Part shown: piece by piece, positions 14,371-21,679 of the stretch | How positions within the stretch are numbered: position 1 is the stretch's first letter | Layout of the letters: the number at the start of each line of letters is the position of its first letter | Source: Bythopirellula goksoeyrii | GTDB lineage: Bacteria > Planctomycetota > Planctomycetia > Pirellulales > Lacipirellulaceae | Reading direction: 5' to 3' | NCBI RefSeq assembly: GCF_008065115.1 | Contig: NZ_CP042913.1 | Location: 1,648,338-1,712,337 of the forward strand | DNA: 64,000 nt | Made by a program: the position numbers and the translations under genes | The notes under the pieces: generated by a model | What the model saw: only the letters and a program-made list of their open reading frames with translations | Database searches by the model: none | Told to the model about the DNA's origin: nothing

Positions 14371-14748
14371 TTAGGCCAGCAAACGGTTCACACTCTGGAT
14401 CAGACGATCCATAGGAAACGGCTTCCGTACATAGTCGTCGACACCGAGCATCTCAGCATAGGCTTTGTGCCGAGCACCTTCGTTGGCGGTGATCATGATA
14501 ATGCGGTGTCGCTTCTCGCCCATGCGTTTCAAGCGTTCGAGCACCAAGAAACCGCTCCGTTTGGGCATCATCATGTCGAGGATAATCAGGTCGGGCGACT
14601 CGCGCTCAATAAGTGCAAGGCCCTGATTGCCATCACGGGCAACTAGGACATCGTAGTCGTGTGCTTCGAGAGCCAATCTCAGAGACTCGATGATCTCAGC
14701 ATCATCGTCTACGAGCAAGATTCGTTTGTTTTCACTTGTTTCAGCCAT
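14371..14748 (-). CDS. Single-domain response regulator (CheY-like)
   Basis: The 125 residues are a complete receiver domain: acidic pocket LLVDDD, phosphorylation site Asp58 in LIILDMMMP, the conserved Thr in MITAN and Lys in RKPF. There is no output domain, so it acts through protein contacts or as a phosphorelay intermediate. No kinase gene adjoins it; the lipoprotein gene downstream is 101 bases away on the same strand. The cognate kinase cannot be told from the sequence. Confidence 0.9.
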   Translation of the reverse strand: MAETSENKRILLVDDDAEIIESLRLALEAHDYDVLVARDGNQGLALIERESPDLIILDMMMPKRSGFLVLERLKRMGEKRHRIIMITANEGARHKAYAEMLGVDDYVRKPFPMDRLIQSVNRLLA

Positions 14749-16136: not shown

Positions 16137-17312
16137 CTACGCCGCCAGCAAATCGCCGCGAGTGCCGAAGAGGGCATCATTAATCGCAGAAGCGATTTCC
16201 GCAGAAGCATGGGGTCGTGCCATGGTACGCATGTTTGCTGCCATGGTCTTGCGTAAGGTTTCGTCGGTCATGAGTGGAGTTAGCTCTCGGGCGATTGCCT
16301 TGTCGAGCGATCCTGCCTGAGACTTTTCATCAACGAGTCGGCACGTCTTGGCAGCGACATACACCTTGGCGTTGGCAAGCTGCTGATCGTCTCGTGCATG
16401 GGCATAGGGTACCAATACTGCCGGAACACCTGCCAAGGCCAATTCTGCCAAGGTAGTTCCTCCTGAGCGACAGACAGCCAGATCGCTTGCAAACAGTACC
16501 GATGCGATTTCATCGATATAGGTAACGGCCAAGGCATCGATGCCGACTTTTCGATAGCGACTTTCCGTTTCCTGGAGTTGGCCTTCCCCTGTCTGGTGAA
16601 CGATTTGCCAGCCACCGAGACATTCTTTGAGCTGGGCAAGGGCAAATGGCATGGACTCATTCAATGAGCGCGCTCCTCCGGCGCCACCCAAGATCACCAT
16701 ACGCTTTTGCCCATCCTGTCCAAGGCGAGCAAAGGGGACCGTCGGTGAGTCGACATTCTGCGATCTCAAGGCGGCGAGCTGTTGGAACAGTTGATCGAAA
16801 GCCGGTCGAGCAGGGTTGCCGGTCACCTTAACGGGAGCTTGAAAGTGCAGGTGAGGTCGCACTTCTTCAAAAGCGGCACAAACCATCGACGCGGCGTGTG
16901 AGAGCCAGCGCGTGGTGCGACTCGGCACGGCATTCTGCTCAAGCAAGATGAAGGGGATGCCTTTTTCTGCCGCGGCACGCACAACCGATGTACTCGTATG
17001 CCCGCCTAAGCCTACGACGAGCGAGACGCGTTGCTCACGCAATGTCCATTTGGCGGTGCAGTATCCTGCGAAATTATCGGTTACGAATCTTAGTGCTTGC
17101 AGAGGGTTCTGCGGCAACGGTTTGGAGGGAATCGTCAAGTATTGGTGGCCAGCCGATCGCACGGCATGCCTCTCTCGGCTTTTCCCTGGCCCGGCGAAAG
17201 TAATCTTCGCCTGGGGCAGCAGCTGTGCCACTTGAGCCGCCACGGCAATGCCTGGGAATAGTTGCCCGGGAGCACCTCCACCTGCAAACATGACATGAGG
17301 AGTGATGGGCAT
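16137..17312 (-). CDS. murG: MurG-like UDP-GlcNAc transferase with altered glycine loop
   Basis: The order of motifs is that of MurG, which adds GlcNAc to lipid I on the inner membrane face. A glycine-rich N loop is followed by VVGLGGHTSTSVVRAA, ILLEQNAVPSRTTRWLS, a second glycine loop (GGAGGARSLNE) and the donor-binding CRSGGTTLAELALAGVPAVLVPY. The first loop, GGTGGHVFPG in E. coli, reads GGGAPGQLFPG: one residue longer and with glutamine where the conserved histidine stands. Start ATG 17312 precedes the core; an upstream TTG would add 29 residues. It follows two other divergent Mur homologues on the same strand. Confidence 0.8.
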   Translation of the reverse strand: MPITPHVMFAGGGAPGQLFPGIAVAAQVAQLLPQAKITFAGPGKSRERHAVRSAGHQYLTIPSKPLPQNPLQALRFVTDNFAGYCTAKWTLREQRVSLVVGLGGHTSTSVVRAAAEKGIPFILLEQNAVPSRTTRWLSHAASMVCAAFEEVRPHLHFQAPVKVTGNPARPAFDQLFQQLAALRSQNVDSPTVPFARLGQDGQKRMVILGGAGGARSLNESMPFALAQLKECLGGWQIVHQTGEGQLQETESRYRKVGIDALAVTYIDEIASVLFASDLAVCRSGGTTLAELALAGVPAVLVPYAHARDDQQLANAKVYVAAKTCRLVDEKSQAGSLDKAIARELTPLMTDETLRKTMAANMRTMARPHASAEIASAINDALFGTRGDLLAA

Positions 17313-17415
17313 AGTCGCGCGACTCTGAAGCGAGGGGAATAAGGACGAAAGGACGTCAACAGAAAATCCGCTGAGCAGCCGGGGCGACGCAAGCGTCACC
17401 CCGGCGCTCAGACAT

Positions 17416-17541
17416 AAGCTTCATCGTGAAGCACCTGTCAGGCAGCTGACCCAGAAGCTGCCCCAGACAGGTTAAAATGCTCCGACCCCAGGGAGGGCAG
17501 TTTGTCAGACCCCGCAATCCAACAAACTAACGATGAAGCTT
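17416..17541. repeat. Inverted repeat enclosing a long hairpin
   Basis: AAGCTTCATCGT at 17416-17427 recurs as its exact complement at 17530-17541. Between them ACCTGTC-GGCAGCT and AGCTGCC-GACAGGT (17433-17472) form a 14-bp interrupted stem. It sits between the MurF-like and MurG-like genes, in the place where classical clusters carry mraY and ftsW. It could be a transcript-processing or termination structure, or a deletion scar; no T run follows. Confidence 0.5.
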
Positions 17542-17572
17542 CAACATTAATCATTCGTATCCTAGTAAACTC

Positions 17573-18079
17573 TCAGGCGGCAGCCGAATGCGATTCCGAG
17601 GCTCGCCGGTCGAGCAAGTCCACCAATTGGTCACAGGCATGCTGCTCTGCCCCGAGCAGCAAGACCGTGTCACCAGGCAAAAGTCGGTTCGCGAGTAACT
17701 CGCAGGCAGCTTTGCTGTCTTGGCACACCACCACATTGGCGAGATCGAGACCCGAGTCTCGAGCACCGATGGCCACTTCGCGCCCCGATGTCCCACAGCT
17801 AATGACAATCGTTCCACAGCCTTCGGCTACGATCGCTTGACCTAGTTGGCGACCCGCGGAAAGCCGTGAGGTATCACACATGACGATGCGACGACCGGTA
17901 GCTCTAAATCCTCGCAGTAGCTCGAGAGCATCGGTCATACCCATATGCGTGACATTCCCAGCACAAATCAGTGAGATTCCTTGGGCGACACGTACTTCCA
18001 TCGCTTCGCGAGGAATACGCATGTGAGTAACTTTCGTGGGAGGGGCTGGTTCTAACATGAGAGTGTCGGTCCATTCCAT
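17573..18079 (-). CDS. Stand-alone MurF C-terminal-domain-like protein
   Basis: The 168 residues align by eye with only the last domain of Mur ligases, best with MurF: GISLICAGNVTHMGMTDALE corresponds to the segment around DSYNANP. ATGRRIVMCDT matches the GRRIAVLGDM strand, and LLPGDTVLLLGAE the LxPGDxVLxKGSR end. The N-terminal and ATPase domains (some 300 residues) are missing, and the signature residues of the remaining domain are changed. It is 71 bases downstream of the MurE-like gene. It may be a degenerate relic or a partner subunit of that protein. Family placement is my inference. Confidence 0.55.
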   Translation of the reverse strand: MEWTDTLMLEPAPPTKVTHMRIPREAMEVRVAQGISLICAGNVTHMGMTDALELLRGFRATGRRIVMCDTSRLSAGRQLGQAIVAEGCGTIVISCGTSGREVAIGARDSGLDLANVVVCQDSKAACELLANRLLPGDTVLLLGAEQHACDQLVDLLDRRASESHSAAA

Positions 18080-18150
18080 GTGATTCTAGGGTCCTGTCTC
18101 GTCGTGCGGTGTGACTTATCGGGGTACTTTTGAATTTCAGTGGGCAGTAT

Positions 18151-19656
18151 CTATCCAACTAAGCGAAGAGGTGCTTGCTCAGTGCGGGCATACAACAATT
18201 TACGAGTAGTGGCTGCGTCGCCTTGTTCTGTGTTCACTGCGAAGGAGCCATAAGCTCGTTGGGGTTCCCAGCGACTTCCGGCAATCACGACAACATCGCC
18301 AGGTTGAGCAACTGACAAGGCACATGCGATGGCTCGACGGCGGTCATCCACGACCTCCACTCGGGCACGTTGGTGACTATCGCCAACACTCAGTTCTTCA
18401 GCCGGGAATGGGCGAGCAACAATTGCCACATCTGCCATTCGAGTGACCACGTGGGCAATAGCTAGTTGCTCGGAGTAGGTTGCATTTCTCGGATCGCCAA
18501 GAACACAGATGACTTGGCCCGTACTTAAATGGCGGGCAGACCGCAGACTTGCCCGCAAGGACTCAGCCGTGTCGGCAGCGTCCACGAAAACGGGAAATCC
18601 CTGTCCGCAGTCAACACGTTCCATTCGGCCCGGTAGGCTTTCTACAGCTTCGATGCCGGCAGCAATCGTTTGCAGGTCCACGCCATAAGAAAGGGCAATG
18701 GTTGCAGCAGCCAAGCAATTGGAAAGGTGATGCTCACCAATCATCGTAGTCCGAAGTGCCGCTGACTGGTTGCCAGCCGAGATCGTAAATTCTTGCTCAT
18801 TACTATGTTCGACAATCAACTCTCCAGAAACCTCTGCTTGATCCTTGGCTCCAAAGGTCAATGCAGGGCCATCAATGTGGGAAAGCCACTTGATGCTCAC
18901 AGGATCGTCGGCGTTGAGCGTGACCATGCCGTCTGGCGAGAGGTGTTTGAGGATGCTTTTCTTAAGGTTGCGGTAGCTCTGCACGGAGTTATGCAGGTCT
19001 AGATGGGCATCGGAAACATTGGTTACACAGATGCTGTCAAACTCAACGCCGGCATAGGATGCCTGTCCCAGTGCTTCACTGCTTACTTCGACGAAGGCGT
19101 GTGTACAGCCGACAGCAACCATTCGCTCTAGTCGCGTAGCCAACTCCGCTGCCACTGGGACTTCGATTCCGGCCGAGTGCGACATGCCATCATAGCACCC
19201 AAGGCCACTGATTTTTCCGCAATGCTTGCCTGCCATGGCGAAAATGGAATCCAGCAGTGCGATGACGGTCGACTTGCCATGCGTGCCGGTAACGGCGACG
19301 ACCGAAATTGACTGGCTAGGGTAACTCGCCAGTGCCTGGCACAGCTTGCCATAGGCAACTCGGCTGTCACTCACGAGATACGTAGGGATATCGAAAACGG
19401 GGACGGGCTCTTCGCAGATCACTGCGATTGCACCGCGAGCAACTGCTTCGTGCACACAGAGATGACCGTTTTCTTCGTTACCAGCCAGTTCGGGTAGAGC
19501 GATAAAGACATCGCCAGGCTGGACTTGTTGCCAATCACTCGTGCAAGAAGTGGCCAGTACGTTTTCTGACCCTGTACGGGTGGCATCGGGAAGCAATCGA
19601 TTCAAATCGACGCTGCCGTTTTCGTTGACAGGTTGCAATCTTATCGCGTTCATCAT
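18151..19656 (-). CDS. MurE-like Mur ligase with altered substrate motifs
   Basis: AAGGAGG six bases before ATG 19656 fixes the start (501 residues). The ATPase core is intact: P loop VTGTHGKST, TNVSDAHLDLH, the carbamoyl-lysine candidate in YRNLKKS, NADDP, and HHLSNCLAAA. In the C-terminal domain the MurE hallmarks are replaced: DYAHTP by DAADTA, the GGDRD segment by LGDPRN, DNPR is absent, and GKGHE is GSRWE. EVSSHAL reads EVSSEAL. So ATP-dependent ligation is plausible but the amino acid acceptor or donor differs from diaminopimelate or lysine. First gene of a Mur-homologue set. Confidence 0.8.
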   Translation of the reverse strand: MMNAIRLQPVNENGSVDLNRLLPDATRTGSENVLATSCTSDWQQVQPGDVFIALPELAGNEENGHLCVHEAVARGAIAVICEEPVPVFDIPTYLVSDSRVAYGKLCQALASYPSQSISVVAVTGTHGKSTVIALLDSIFAMAGKHCGKISGLGCYDGMSHSAGIEVPVAAELATRLERMVAVGCTHAFVEVSSEALGQASYAGVEFDSICVTNVSDAHLDLHNSVQSYRNLKKSILKHLSPDGMVTLNADDPVSIKWLSHIDGPALTFGAKDQAEVSGELIVEHSNEQEFTISAGNQSAALRTTMIGEHHLSNCLAAATIALSYGVDLQTIAAGIEAVESLPGRMERVDCGQGFPVFVDAADTAESLRASLRSARHLSTGQVICVLGDPRNATYSEQLAIAHVVTRMADVAIVARPFPAEELSVGDSHQRARVEVVDDRRRAIACALSVAQPGDVVVIAGSRWEPQRAYGSFAVNTEQGDAATTRKLLYARTEQAPLRLVG

Positions 19657-19959
19657 ACCAGGCCTCCTTGCCTGAGAGCCGACGCCACTGCGGGGGCGAT
19701 GGGTCTGCTCTGACGAGCTCGCCGCGAAGAAATCCATTCCTTCGCGCTGGTCCTTGGCTAACTGCGATTCCTCGCCGGCGAGTTCCTCCTGGGTGAGTTC
19801 TCCTGCCAAGGCCCTGCGGATTGTGTCAATTTGCCAAGTCCTGTCAAGGCGACTTCCAGGCTCGTTGAGATCCCCACGCTATCGTGCGCTGCTCTCTCTG
19901 TATTTCTCGTTGATTCTTATCACAATCCAGCTAGACAACACGGCCCAAAGAGGCAGACA
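19657..19959. promoter_or_regulatory. Divergent intergenic region
   Basis: About 300 bases between the divergent MurE-like and HTH-IIA genes. Both frames remain open through part of it, which makes longer N termini possible on paper. The ribosome binding site at 19659-19668 (minus) and AGAGGC before ATG 19960 (plus) favour the short forms. Promoters for both directions must lie here, but I cannot pick out convincing -35/-10 pairs. Confidence 0.4.
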
Positions 19960-20709
19960 ATGTTAGTCGGTGTTGCTCTTGCTAGCACAAGGAAATCAAT
20001 CGTGGCCGAAGAAGACTTTGATATATCATCGCTTGCAGCCTACCTACACATGCTGCCGGCGCAAATTATTCGACTTGCCGAACGTGGGAAGATTCCTGCA
20101 CGTCGTGTAGGGGGCGATTGGCGTTTTTCAGCGCATGAAGTGCATCTCTGGCTGGAGGATCGCATTGGTCTCTCCGACGATTCGGAATTGGCCCAGATGG
20201 AAACGAATCTGGAACGAACTACGAAAGAGACCAATGGCGAGATTTCCATCGCTGAACTGCTGCCCGAGGATGCGATTGCCATTCCGCTGGCGGCACGCAC
20301 ACGTGGGAGCGTCATCTCCGCGATGGCCGACTTGGCTTGCAATACGGGACTGCTTTGGGATCCGGCTAAAATGGCCGACGCCGTCGCCGCGCGGGAAGAC
20401 ATGCATCCCACGGCACTCGACATTGGCGTGGCGCTACTGCATCCACGTCGTCCCCAATCGTCGATCCTGGGTGGTTCGATCTTGGCACTCGGCATTACGA
20501 GCCAGGGAATACCTTTTGGCGGGACAAGTGGTTTGACCGATGTGTTTTTCCTGATTTGTGCTACAGACGACCATGAGCACTTGCGGATTCTGGCCCGCCT
20601 GAGTCGCATGATCACCGATGCCGACTGGCTGGCCGAGTTACGTGAAGCTACCGATTCCAAGAACGCCCATAGCCTGATCGCCACAAGAGACGCTTCGCTT
20701 AGTACCTAA
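19960..20709 (+). CDS. HTH (excisionase-type) fused to PTS IIA (PtsN-like) domain
   Basis: Residues about 18-70 are a MerR/excisionase-type winged helix (LAAYLHMLPAQIIRLAERG, IPARRVGGDWRFSAHEV). Residues 95-240 are a PTS EIIA of the nitrogen-regulatory type, with the phospho-histidine region DIGVALLHPRRP (canonical AIPHGR) and the late strand DVFFLICATDDHEH. A DNA-binding head joined to a phosphorylatable domain suggests a transcription regulator that senses PTS phosphorylation. No other PTS gene is nearby. ATG 19960 is preceded by AGAGGC; the frame is open to 19831. Confidence 0.8.
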   Translation: MLVGVALASTRKSIVAEEDFDISSLAAYLHMLPAQIIRLAERGKIPARRVGGDWRFSAHEVHLWLEDRIGLSDDSELAQMETNLERTTKETNGEISIAELLPEDAIAIPLAARTRGSVISAMADLACNTGLLWDPAKMADAVAAREDMHPTALDIGVALLHPRRPQSSILGGSILALGITSQGIPFGGTSGLTDVFFLICATDDHEHLRILARLSRMITDADWLAELREATDSKNAHSLIATRDASLST

Positions 20710-20836: not shown

Positions 20837-21679
20837 ATGAATGCTCCTTCATATTCCTATCAATGTGATGATTCCGTAGGAAACAAATCTACGGTTGGAG
20901 TCTTGCTTGTCGGGCCCTGGAAAAATGGTGAGTTTGCTGAAATCTTATCTCCCCTTTCCATGAGTGCCGATTGGCAACGGACCGCATCCTGCGAGGAGGC
21001 CGCAGCACTTCTCCAGGAAACGGAGTTTGCTCCGGAGTTGATCCTGCTTGCTTGCCCGTTGCCGGATACCTATTTGGATGCTGATGTTGAGCAACTCCTG
21101 CTAGCAGCACCGCTGGCCAGATTGGTCGTGGTCGCGGGAACCTGGTGCGAAGGGGAATTGAGGACAGGCACGCCGCTTTCCGGAGTCTTGCGCCTCTATT
21201 GGTATGAATTTCCTGGCTGGTGGACGTCGGCGATCAATACGCTCGGACATGGCGGTTGTCCTCCGTGGTCGCAGCCCTTGGATGGCCCGCACTCAGGTCG
21301 GTGTCTGGATACAATCCAAGCGGAGCTGACAGGAGTCGTTGCCATCGATTGCAAGCTGATTTCAACCTTCGACGCGCTAGCCGGCGCGTTGGGTCCCTAT
21401 AAAGCAGAATGCCACTGGGCACGACGAGGCCAGTTTGAACAACTCCCTTCGCAAGTAACCGCCGGCATTTGGGACGGCGGACAGTTGGAGCCTCTTGAAT
21501 TGGAACGCCTGCGGATTTTCGCTCAGGAGATCTGCAAGCGAGGCGGCAGAGTGATCGCCCTGCTGGATTTTCCGCGGCAGGAACATCTGGCAATGGTACG
21601 CGATGCTGGCGGCAGTGCTGTCATGGGCAAGCCCTATGTGGTTGAAGAATTGGTGAGCCGTTTACTCTCCCTTCAGTAG
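20837..21679 (+). CDS. Receiver-like protein without a clear phosphorylation site
   Basis: The 280 residues read as two response-regulator-like folds. The first (20-115) has LLVGPW and ELILLACPLPDT where a receiver would carry the phospho-acceptor aspartate in a LLDxxLPD setting; here that residue is alanine. The second (about 155-278) ends RVIALLDFPRQEH then GGSAVMGKPYVVEELVSRLL, the conserved lysine region. It may be a pseudo-receiver pair acting through protein contacts. It lies downstream of the HTH-IIA gene on the same strand, separated by the hairpin repeat. Confidence 0.6.
   Translation: MNAPSYSYQCDDSVGNKSTVGVLLVGPWKNGEFAEILSPLSMSADWQRTASCEEAAALLQETEFAPELILLACPLPDTYLDADVEQLLLAAPLARLVVVAGTWCEGELRTGTPLSGVLRLYWYEFPGWWTSAINTLGHGGCPPWSQPLDGPHSGRCLDTIQAELTGVVAIDCKLISTFDALAGALGPYKAECHWARRGQFEQLPSQVTAGIWDGGQLEPLELERLRIFAQEICKRGGRVIALLDFPRQEHLAMVRDAGGSAVMGKPYVVEELVSRLLSLQ

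Follow-up and report, generated by a model that had tools for sequence, protein, structure and literature searches.

Three neighbouring genes in a 64,000-nucleotide stretch of the Bythopirellula goksoeyrii genome (contig NZ_CP042913.1; the window) encode, in this order, a MurE-like protein, a stand-alone MurF C-terminal domain (MurF-C) and a MurG-like glycosyltransferase. The trio is a true remnant of an ordinary division and cell wall (dcw) cluster, and all three genes encode maintained proteins under purifying selection. Judging from the sequences, we suggest, with about even confidence, that the trio is a dcw relict in a lineage without a peptidoglycan pathway and is retained for a joint new role, in which the MurG-like protein would still be active and the other two would be its non-catalytic partners. 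The analysis covered the B. goksoeyrii genome (one contig, 6,473,141 bases), its family, Lacipirellulaceae (the own family), and further genomes. Genomes are designated by G-numbers and genera by g-numbers, and f2 is the second family in the comparison.

The origin of the trio is apparent from three genomes of the order Pirellulales that belong to other families. G182, G165 and G185 carry murE-murF-mraY-murG-murC-ddl, with canonical motifs, at the equivalent locus. A flank comprising the genes for a PTS-IIA protein, a 280-residue protein and M78 is common to these loci and the window locus, and rimO is also present in G182 and G185. Because gene order and flank both match the intact dcw loci, the trio is read as what is left of such a cluster, and the proposal of the first-pass annotation, a dcw cluster that diverged after losing its middle, is supported. 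The end of the cluster has been lost too, since murC and ddl are gone from the B. goksoeyrii locus.

Comparison of the cluster across relatives, a check that the annotation had named, also shows that the trio arrangement recurs. The MurG-like gene is found in 38 of 43 own-family genomes and in all 28 of high quality. Of the 37 own-family loci with MurG, window included, those of G259 and G246 are truncated at contig ends and cannot be assessed; in 34 of the other 35 the MurG-like gene is preceded by the MurE-like gene. The sole family exception, G265 (L078:6619-7839), has a MurG-like protein whose loop reads GGGTGGH, and the 6.6 kb upstream contain no recognisable MurE. In genera g1, g130, g132 and g191, all 21 assessable loci have an open reading frame (ORF) for the MurF C-domain, against 0/13 MurE-MurG loci in the other own-family genera. 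In f2 genomes the locus retains MurE and lacks MurG. Gene loss across the order is stepwise, from the full cluster to MurE plus MurG to MurE only. In a tree of 56 MurE rows, the 33 own-family rows form one clade (support 100/99); the tree omits G249, G201 and G174, which are fragmentary or very divergent, has several long branches, and does not place f2 in one clade. Horizontal gain of a foreign cluster is ruled out by the common flank together with the single MurE clade.

The middle member of the trio has Mur_ligase_C as its sole Pfam match, at 27.0 bits, just under the cut-off of 28.4. By hhalign, the match to MurF is 98.9% (E 1.5e-17), to MurC 70.9% over 44 columns, to MurE 54.7% and to MurD 9%, the MurD side being one sequence and hence a weak comparison. 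These values indicate that the orphan domain most probably descends from MurF and not from another Mur ligase, in agreement with the annotation, and they rule out a duplicate of the MurE C-domain. A structural model of MurF-C (predicted local distance difference test, pLDDT, 78.3; predicted template modelling score, pTM, 0.74) was compared with solved structures by VIA-align. The top match is Pseudomonas aeruginosa MurF (4cvm; Z 15.9, 124 residues, root-mean-square deviation 2.3), followed by cyanophycin synthetase (15.7), MurC (15.0) and MurE (14.6); the fold alone is indecisive because the other ligases lie within about 1.3 Z. A profile of MurF-C proteins matched no solved chain at E 0.1. 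The orphan domain thus resembles MurF in a profile match well above those to MurE, MurC and MurD, and differs in that it stands alone, without the N-terminal and ATPase domains, and has lost the lysine of the KGSR motif, which reads LGAE. The gap between the stop of the MurE-like gene and the start of MurF-C is 71 bp, which is too short to hold a frame-shifted N-terminal part of MurF. A frameshift or assembly error, which the annotation had listed as fatal to its reading, is ruled out by this gap and by the identical arrangement in all 21 assessable loci. In G230, a full-length MurF relative (L049:11132-12532) with SHSGRR at the P-loop and DGCR at KGSR lies beside MurE; this degenerate MurF is a possible intermediate towards the lone C-domain.

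Selection was assessed from the ratio of nonsynonymous to synonymous substitution rates (dN/dS; Nei-Gojobori with Jukes-Cantor correction) in 18 chosen pairs, of which 13 are from the own family, four from f2 and one of the intact type; dS is saturated in several pairs, including G000-G248, and not computable in some. The MurE-like gene has dN/dS of 0.03–0.40 in 13/13 own-family pairs, with a second highest value of 0.264. The MurG-like gene, computable in 11/13 of these pairs, gives 0.04–0.27 and is below MurE in nine of them. MurF-C gives 0.03–0.20 in six of eight pairs; the other two are saturated and have low amino-acid identity (47% for G238-G244, 52% for G252-G257). A g129 pair whose MurE-like proteins lack the P-loop lysine has a MurE dN/dS of 0.236, like the 0.233 of its M78 neighbour, and a second g129 pair has 0.397. 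In f2, MurE values of 0.05–0.08 are like those of RimO. Since every computable own-family value is well under 1, these are maintained proteins.

These results bear on the possibility of slow pseudogenisation, in which a functionless cluster is vanishing gene by gene. Such a process would account for the stepwise gene loss across the order, the eroding catalytic motifs, the survival of the degenerate G230 MurF beside MurE, and the fast MurF-C evolution in the two pairs for which dN/dS is not computable. We consider it improbable, given the dN/dS values, the absence of internal stops in all 38 listed MurG-like matches, the presence of the MurG-like gene in every high-quality family genome, and the existence of conserved non-catalytic columns in the MurE-like rows. 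The annotation had offered either decay or another product, a choice that needs refinement. Simple decay is contradicted by purifying selection, and a third option, non-catalytic partners beside a still-competent glycosyltransferase, appears to fit the residues best, as described below.

What remains of the peptidoglycan pathway was sought with profile searches. The B. goksoeyrii genome yielded no detectable MurA, MurC, MurD, full MurF, MraY, MurJ, penicillin-binding protein transpeptidase or FtsW/RodA, where the annotation had advised looking for the other mur genes and mraY; L,D-transpeptidases, transglycosylases, Ddl and MreB were outside these family searches. Mur_ligase_M is matched only by the MurE-like protein and FolC. 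The sole 5-enolpyruvylshikimate-3-phosphate (EPSP) synthase is AroA (450.5 bits vs 77.1 for murA), and the sole PF00953 protein is WecA-like (122.2 bits vs 61.5 for mraY, all under cut-off). The family searches covered 32 chosen genomes, with the AroA, MurB, WecA-like and FolC identities established in the B. goksoeyrii genome only. Transpeptidase and FtsW/RodA were found in 0/11 own-family and 0/6 f2 genomes tested. Both were found in G158, G182, G165, G185, G024 and G048, the G158 transpeptidase match being partial (28.2 bits), and the same searches returned five to seven Mur_ligase_M matches and two EPSP synthases in G182, G165, G185, G024 and G048. The term intact-type is defined by gene content alone; G163, with canonical-like MurE and MurF and no transpeptidase or FtsW/RodA match, was left out of the intact-type residue counts. 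Of the other ten own-family genomes, two exceed the MurJ cut-off with weak matches (38.3 bits in G238, 28.1 bits in G242) and three have weak matches below it. MurB was found in 32/32 genomes tested, and the B. goksoeyrii copy (C1:3187494; L098:5489-6367) passes the curated cut-off. Since the 32 include genomes with a single EPSP synthase (AroA in B. goksoeyrii), MurB seems to persist without MurA.

It could be supposed that canonical peptidoglycan is still made and that the missing steps are performed by proteins too divergent to detect. Passages of PMC4432640 report essential peptidoglycan genes in all species analysed there, and a figure legend refers to diaminopimelate in Rhodopirellula baltica. 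The presence of MurB in every genome tested would also be expected. Each of the four g129 genomes has one Mur_ligase_M match, which lies elsewhere than the MurE-like gene and is presumably FolC; hidden divergent ligases are thus possible, because the search misses the g129 MurE-like proteins themselves. This supposition is nevertheless very improbable, since the enzymes from MurA to FtsW/RodA go undetected in the B. goksoeyrii genome by searches that succeed in the five genomes above, and since the MurE-like protein lacks the diaminopimelate site. PMC12283558 reports that murA, C, D, F, G, J and ftsW have disappeared from Pirellulales, Isosphaerales and Gemmatales; the MurG-like proteins described here may have been missed in that work. 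For Planctomycetia, PMC10632474 describes murE as semi-conserved and murB as very conserved.

The MurE-like protein matches Mur_ligase_M (125 bits) and Mur_ligase_C (67.3 bits) in Pfam. It scores 248.1 bits against TIGR01085 (murE), just under the curated cut-off of 257.3, and its best NCBIfam equivalog, NF001126, gives 269.9 against a cut-off of 373. As in MurE of Escherichia coli (1e8c) and Mycobacterium tuberculosis (2wtz), the middle and C-terminal ligase domains are present, the alignment extends over most of the length, the gene comes first in the dcw remnant and the P-loop is kept. Unlike those enzymes, the own-family proteins lack the substrate-site residues and no surrounding pathway was found. 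Motif alignment confirmed the annotation's reading that the ATPase motifs are intact and the DYAHTP, GGDRD, DNPR and GKGHE elements changed. The P-loop reads GTHGKS, DYAHTP has become DAADTA, the GGDRD region GDPRNATYSEQ, DNPR RPFP, GKGHE GSRWE, and SSH SSE. The motifs are canonical in G158, G182, G165, G185, G024 and G048. The ATPase site of the window protein is complete, with the P-loop lysine, the HLD histidine and the carbamoylated lysine all present, and ATP binding is therefore likely in B. goksoeyrii on these residues. The AlphaFold model of this protein is poor (mean pLDDT 65.8, pTM 0.49).

The substrate-site losses, whose conservation among relatives the annotation had left to be checked, are family-wide. 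The SSH histidine, the DYAHTP tyrosine and the GKGHE lysine are each found in 0/33 own-family rows and the DNPR arginine in 1/33; the altered pocket residues are variable, with no single new conserved set. The carbamoylated-lysine column is K in 6/6 intact-type, 8/9 f2 and 7/33 own-family rows, and the lysine is missing in 5/11 own-genus rows with a full MurE. The P-loop lysine is kept in 29/33 own-family rows, the exceptions being four g129 species. At 24 MurE function sites the own family has the canonical letter in 35% of cases, vs 56% at 65 other canonical-invariant columns (one-sided Mann-Whitney p 0.013); in f2 the same comparison gives 58 vs 76% (p 0.042). In this count the lysine column was corrected, the E. 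coli gap being shifted there, and a P-loop change from T to S, which is usually harmless, was scored as a loss. An earlier count of 14 hand-picked columns is not used, as its sites were picked after the losses had been seen; the 24-site contrast is smaller. Residue numbers are those of the E. coli proteins. For the seven ATPase sites, retention is 100% in f2 (eight rows, without G200), 77% within the own genus, 59% across the own family and just 11% in g129; the corresponding figures for the substrate and C-domain sites are 41, 31, 26 and 19%. It follows from these graded percentages that substrate sites were lost first and ATPase sites later. The erosion of MurE function sites is thus stepwise: it begins with the substrate sites, next reaches the carbamoylated lysine and extends to the P-loop lysine in a single genus.

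The MurG-like protein shows a different pattern. It matches Glyco_transf_28 and Glyco_tran_28_C, that is, both domains, and scores 229.1 bits against TIGR01133 (murG), just under the curated cut-off of 250.25. The donor residues E269, N292, R164, N128 and Q289 are all kept in the window protein, and in the own family they are found in 37/37, 37/37, 36/37, 34/37 and 32/37 members. On the acceptor side, T16 is kept in 2/37, S192 in 10/37, Y106 in 11/37 and H19 in 21/37, compared with 6/6 for T16, S192 and H19 and 5/6 for Y106 in intact-type rows. The acceptor loop of the window protein reads GGGAPGQ and departs from GGxxGH. The annotation had given this loop correctly and derived it from GGTGGH; the ancestral loop was probably already not exactly that, because intact relatives read GGGTAGH (three same-order genomes) or GGGTLGH (G158). 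Relative to MurG of glycosyltransferase family GT28 (E. coli 1f0k, P. aeruginosa 3s2u), then, both domains and nearly invariant donor-site residues are shared, whereas the glycine loop, H19, Y106 and S192 are changed in many members and no MraY to supply lipid I was found in the B. goksoeyrii genome.

Non-catalytic partners beside a competent glycosyltransferase appear to fit this residue pattern best. We propose that the MurG-like protein would still transfer a sugar from a uridine diphosphate (UDP)-sugar, probably UDP-N-acetylglucosamine. The acceptor would be a membrane molecule other than lipid I, possibly a product of the one WecA-like phosphoglycosyltransferase. The MurE-like protein and MurF-C would hold, position or regulate the MurG-like protein, and the physical association of MurE and MurF with MurG in walled bacteria would have been kept after the ligase chemistry was lost. 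An association of this kind is on record: according to PMC6420597, MurE-MurF of Bordetella pertussis binds MurG with a dissociation constant of 0.57 uM. The corresponding proteins bind one another there, but as peptidoglycan enzymes and with MurE and MurF fused. It is tempting to extend the proposal to the whole family, as a pseudo-Mur complex in which a MurE pseudoligase and the orphan MurF-C would act as scaffold or control for a MurG whose sugar acceptor is a new membrane molecule; we put this forward tentatively, at somewhat less than even confidence.

A small new pathway would read the same residues otherwise. The MurE-like protein would be an active amide ligase for another amino acid and another sugar-nucleotide or lipid, and the MurG-like protein would glycosylate its product to give a lipid-linked glycopeptide that is not murein. 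The complete ATPase site of B. goksoeyrii, the P-loop lysine in 29/33 own-family rows, and the retention of all seven ATPase sites in the eight f2 rows counted, with a MurE dN/dS of 0.05–0.08 there, agree with such chemistry. Nevertheless, the carbamoylated lysine is missing from nearly half of the full own-genus MurE rows, four g129 species keep the gene without the P-loop lysine (dN/dS 0.236 and 0.397), and the pocket residues vary rather than converge on one new set, which makes this pathway rather unlikely.

Several points weigh against a relict complex built around an active MurG-like protein. An active ligase with a different substrate would also be consistent with the intact ATPase site of B. 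goksoeyrii. H19 is kept in 21/37 members, so that the acceptor loop is not uniformly changed, and there is no overall relaxation of the acceptor half, since mean family identity is alike in the acceptor (0.572) and donor (0.562) domains. In the sole intact-type pair, MurE is under tighter constraint than MurG (0.122 vs 0.209). Neither partner is strictly required, because the 13 MurE-MurG loci outside the four genera lack MurF-C and G265 has MurG without MurE; nor can MurE everywhere serve MurG, because the f2 MurE persists without MurG at the locus. MurJ tracks the pathway poorly: it is strong in G150 and G153, which have no transpeptidase, and of two genomes that do have one, G185 gives a weak match and G158 none. 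Peptidoglycan components are reported in R. baltica, of the same order, in the passages cited above (Jeske 2015, PMC4432640). Finally, the interaction of the three proteins, the activity of the MurG-like protein and its acceptor are what we infer from sequence comparison.

Retention of a Mur ligase outside peptidoglycan synthesis has a precedent in PAP11, the plant MurE of the plastid-encoded RNA polymerase. MurE was kept there after most Mur genes were lost; the setting differs, with a plant organelle and RNA polymerase as the partner, and full loss of catalysis in plant MurE is left open. By analogy, a non-catalytic partner role of the MurE-like protein may be comparable. Chains of the PAP11 complex rank among the top solved-structure matches of the MurE-like protein in the window, with 154.8 bits for 8w9z, behind 8f5d at 193.9 bits. 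A special MurE-PAP11 link as evidence of function was rejected, because the intact MurE of G182, of the same order, also matches PAP11 chains highly; the match denotes sequence kinship, not common function.

The positions of the trio and its neighbours are collected in Table 1. A longer MurE-like ORF is possible, with a TTG opening at 19809.

Table 1. Genes of the Mur-like trio and neighbouring genes in the window.
Feature	Position	Strand	Length	Remarks
MurE-like protein	19656 (ATG) to 18151	minus	501 aa	ATPase motifs intact in B. goksoeyrii; UDP-substrate and diaminopimelate sites lost
Stand-alone MurF C-terminal domain	18079-17573	minus	168 aa	Without N-terminal and ATPase domains
MurG-like glycosyltransferase	17312 (conserved ATG) to 16137	minus		ORF opens with GTG at 17399
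Excisionase-type helix-turn-helix (HTH) and phosphotransferase system (PTS) EIIA-2 domain protein	19831-20709	plus		Divergent neighbour; flank anchoring orthology with intact dcw loci
Single-domain response regulator	14371-14748	minus		Same strand as MurG-like gene; nearby in several family genera
280-aa neighbour	20837-21679			Close to murE in many of the order's genomes

The PTS-IIA/HTH gene is next to murE in G182, G165 and G185, in 8/9 f2 loci and in 14 own-family loci. It was not found in g126, g127, g128, g129 and g131, which have the most degenerate MurE, nor in g191, G250 and G253; the loci of G249, G258 and G271 are cut or short in this tally. The association with MurE decay is thus imperfect, and shared losses may account for it. 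The highly conserved response regulator may be an associate of the trio. Besides the window, it is downstream of MurG on the same strand in 15/36 fetched own-family loci, many of these stretches being too short to tell, and in L101 and L102 its distance downstream is several kb; no copy turned up in the stretches fetched for five intact-type loci that have MurG. The 280-residue neighbour evolves fast and has no Pfam or NCBIfam match at E 0.01.

The loss of mur genes in Pirellulales is already published, and no description of the retained trio appears in the titles or abstract openings of the literature matches listed. Peptidoglycan in this order is disputed, with components reported in R. baltica on the one hand and most mur genes reported lost on the other. 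The locus offers a concrete test of the dispute, since selection maintains three relict genes in type strains that are cultivated and sequenced. It also offers a gradation, with a canonical ligase elsewhere in the order at one end and a protein lacking the P-loop lysine within the family at the other, which would be a useful natural record of an enzyme becoming a non-catalytic part. If the proposal is true, the pseudo-Mur complex would be a counterpart of PAP11 in free-living bacteria, with the stages from enzyme to scaffold preserved in living genera.

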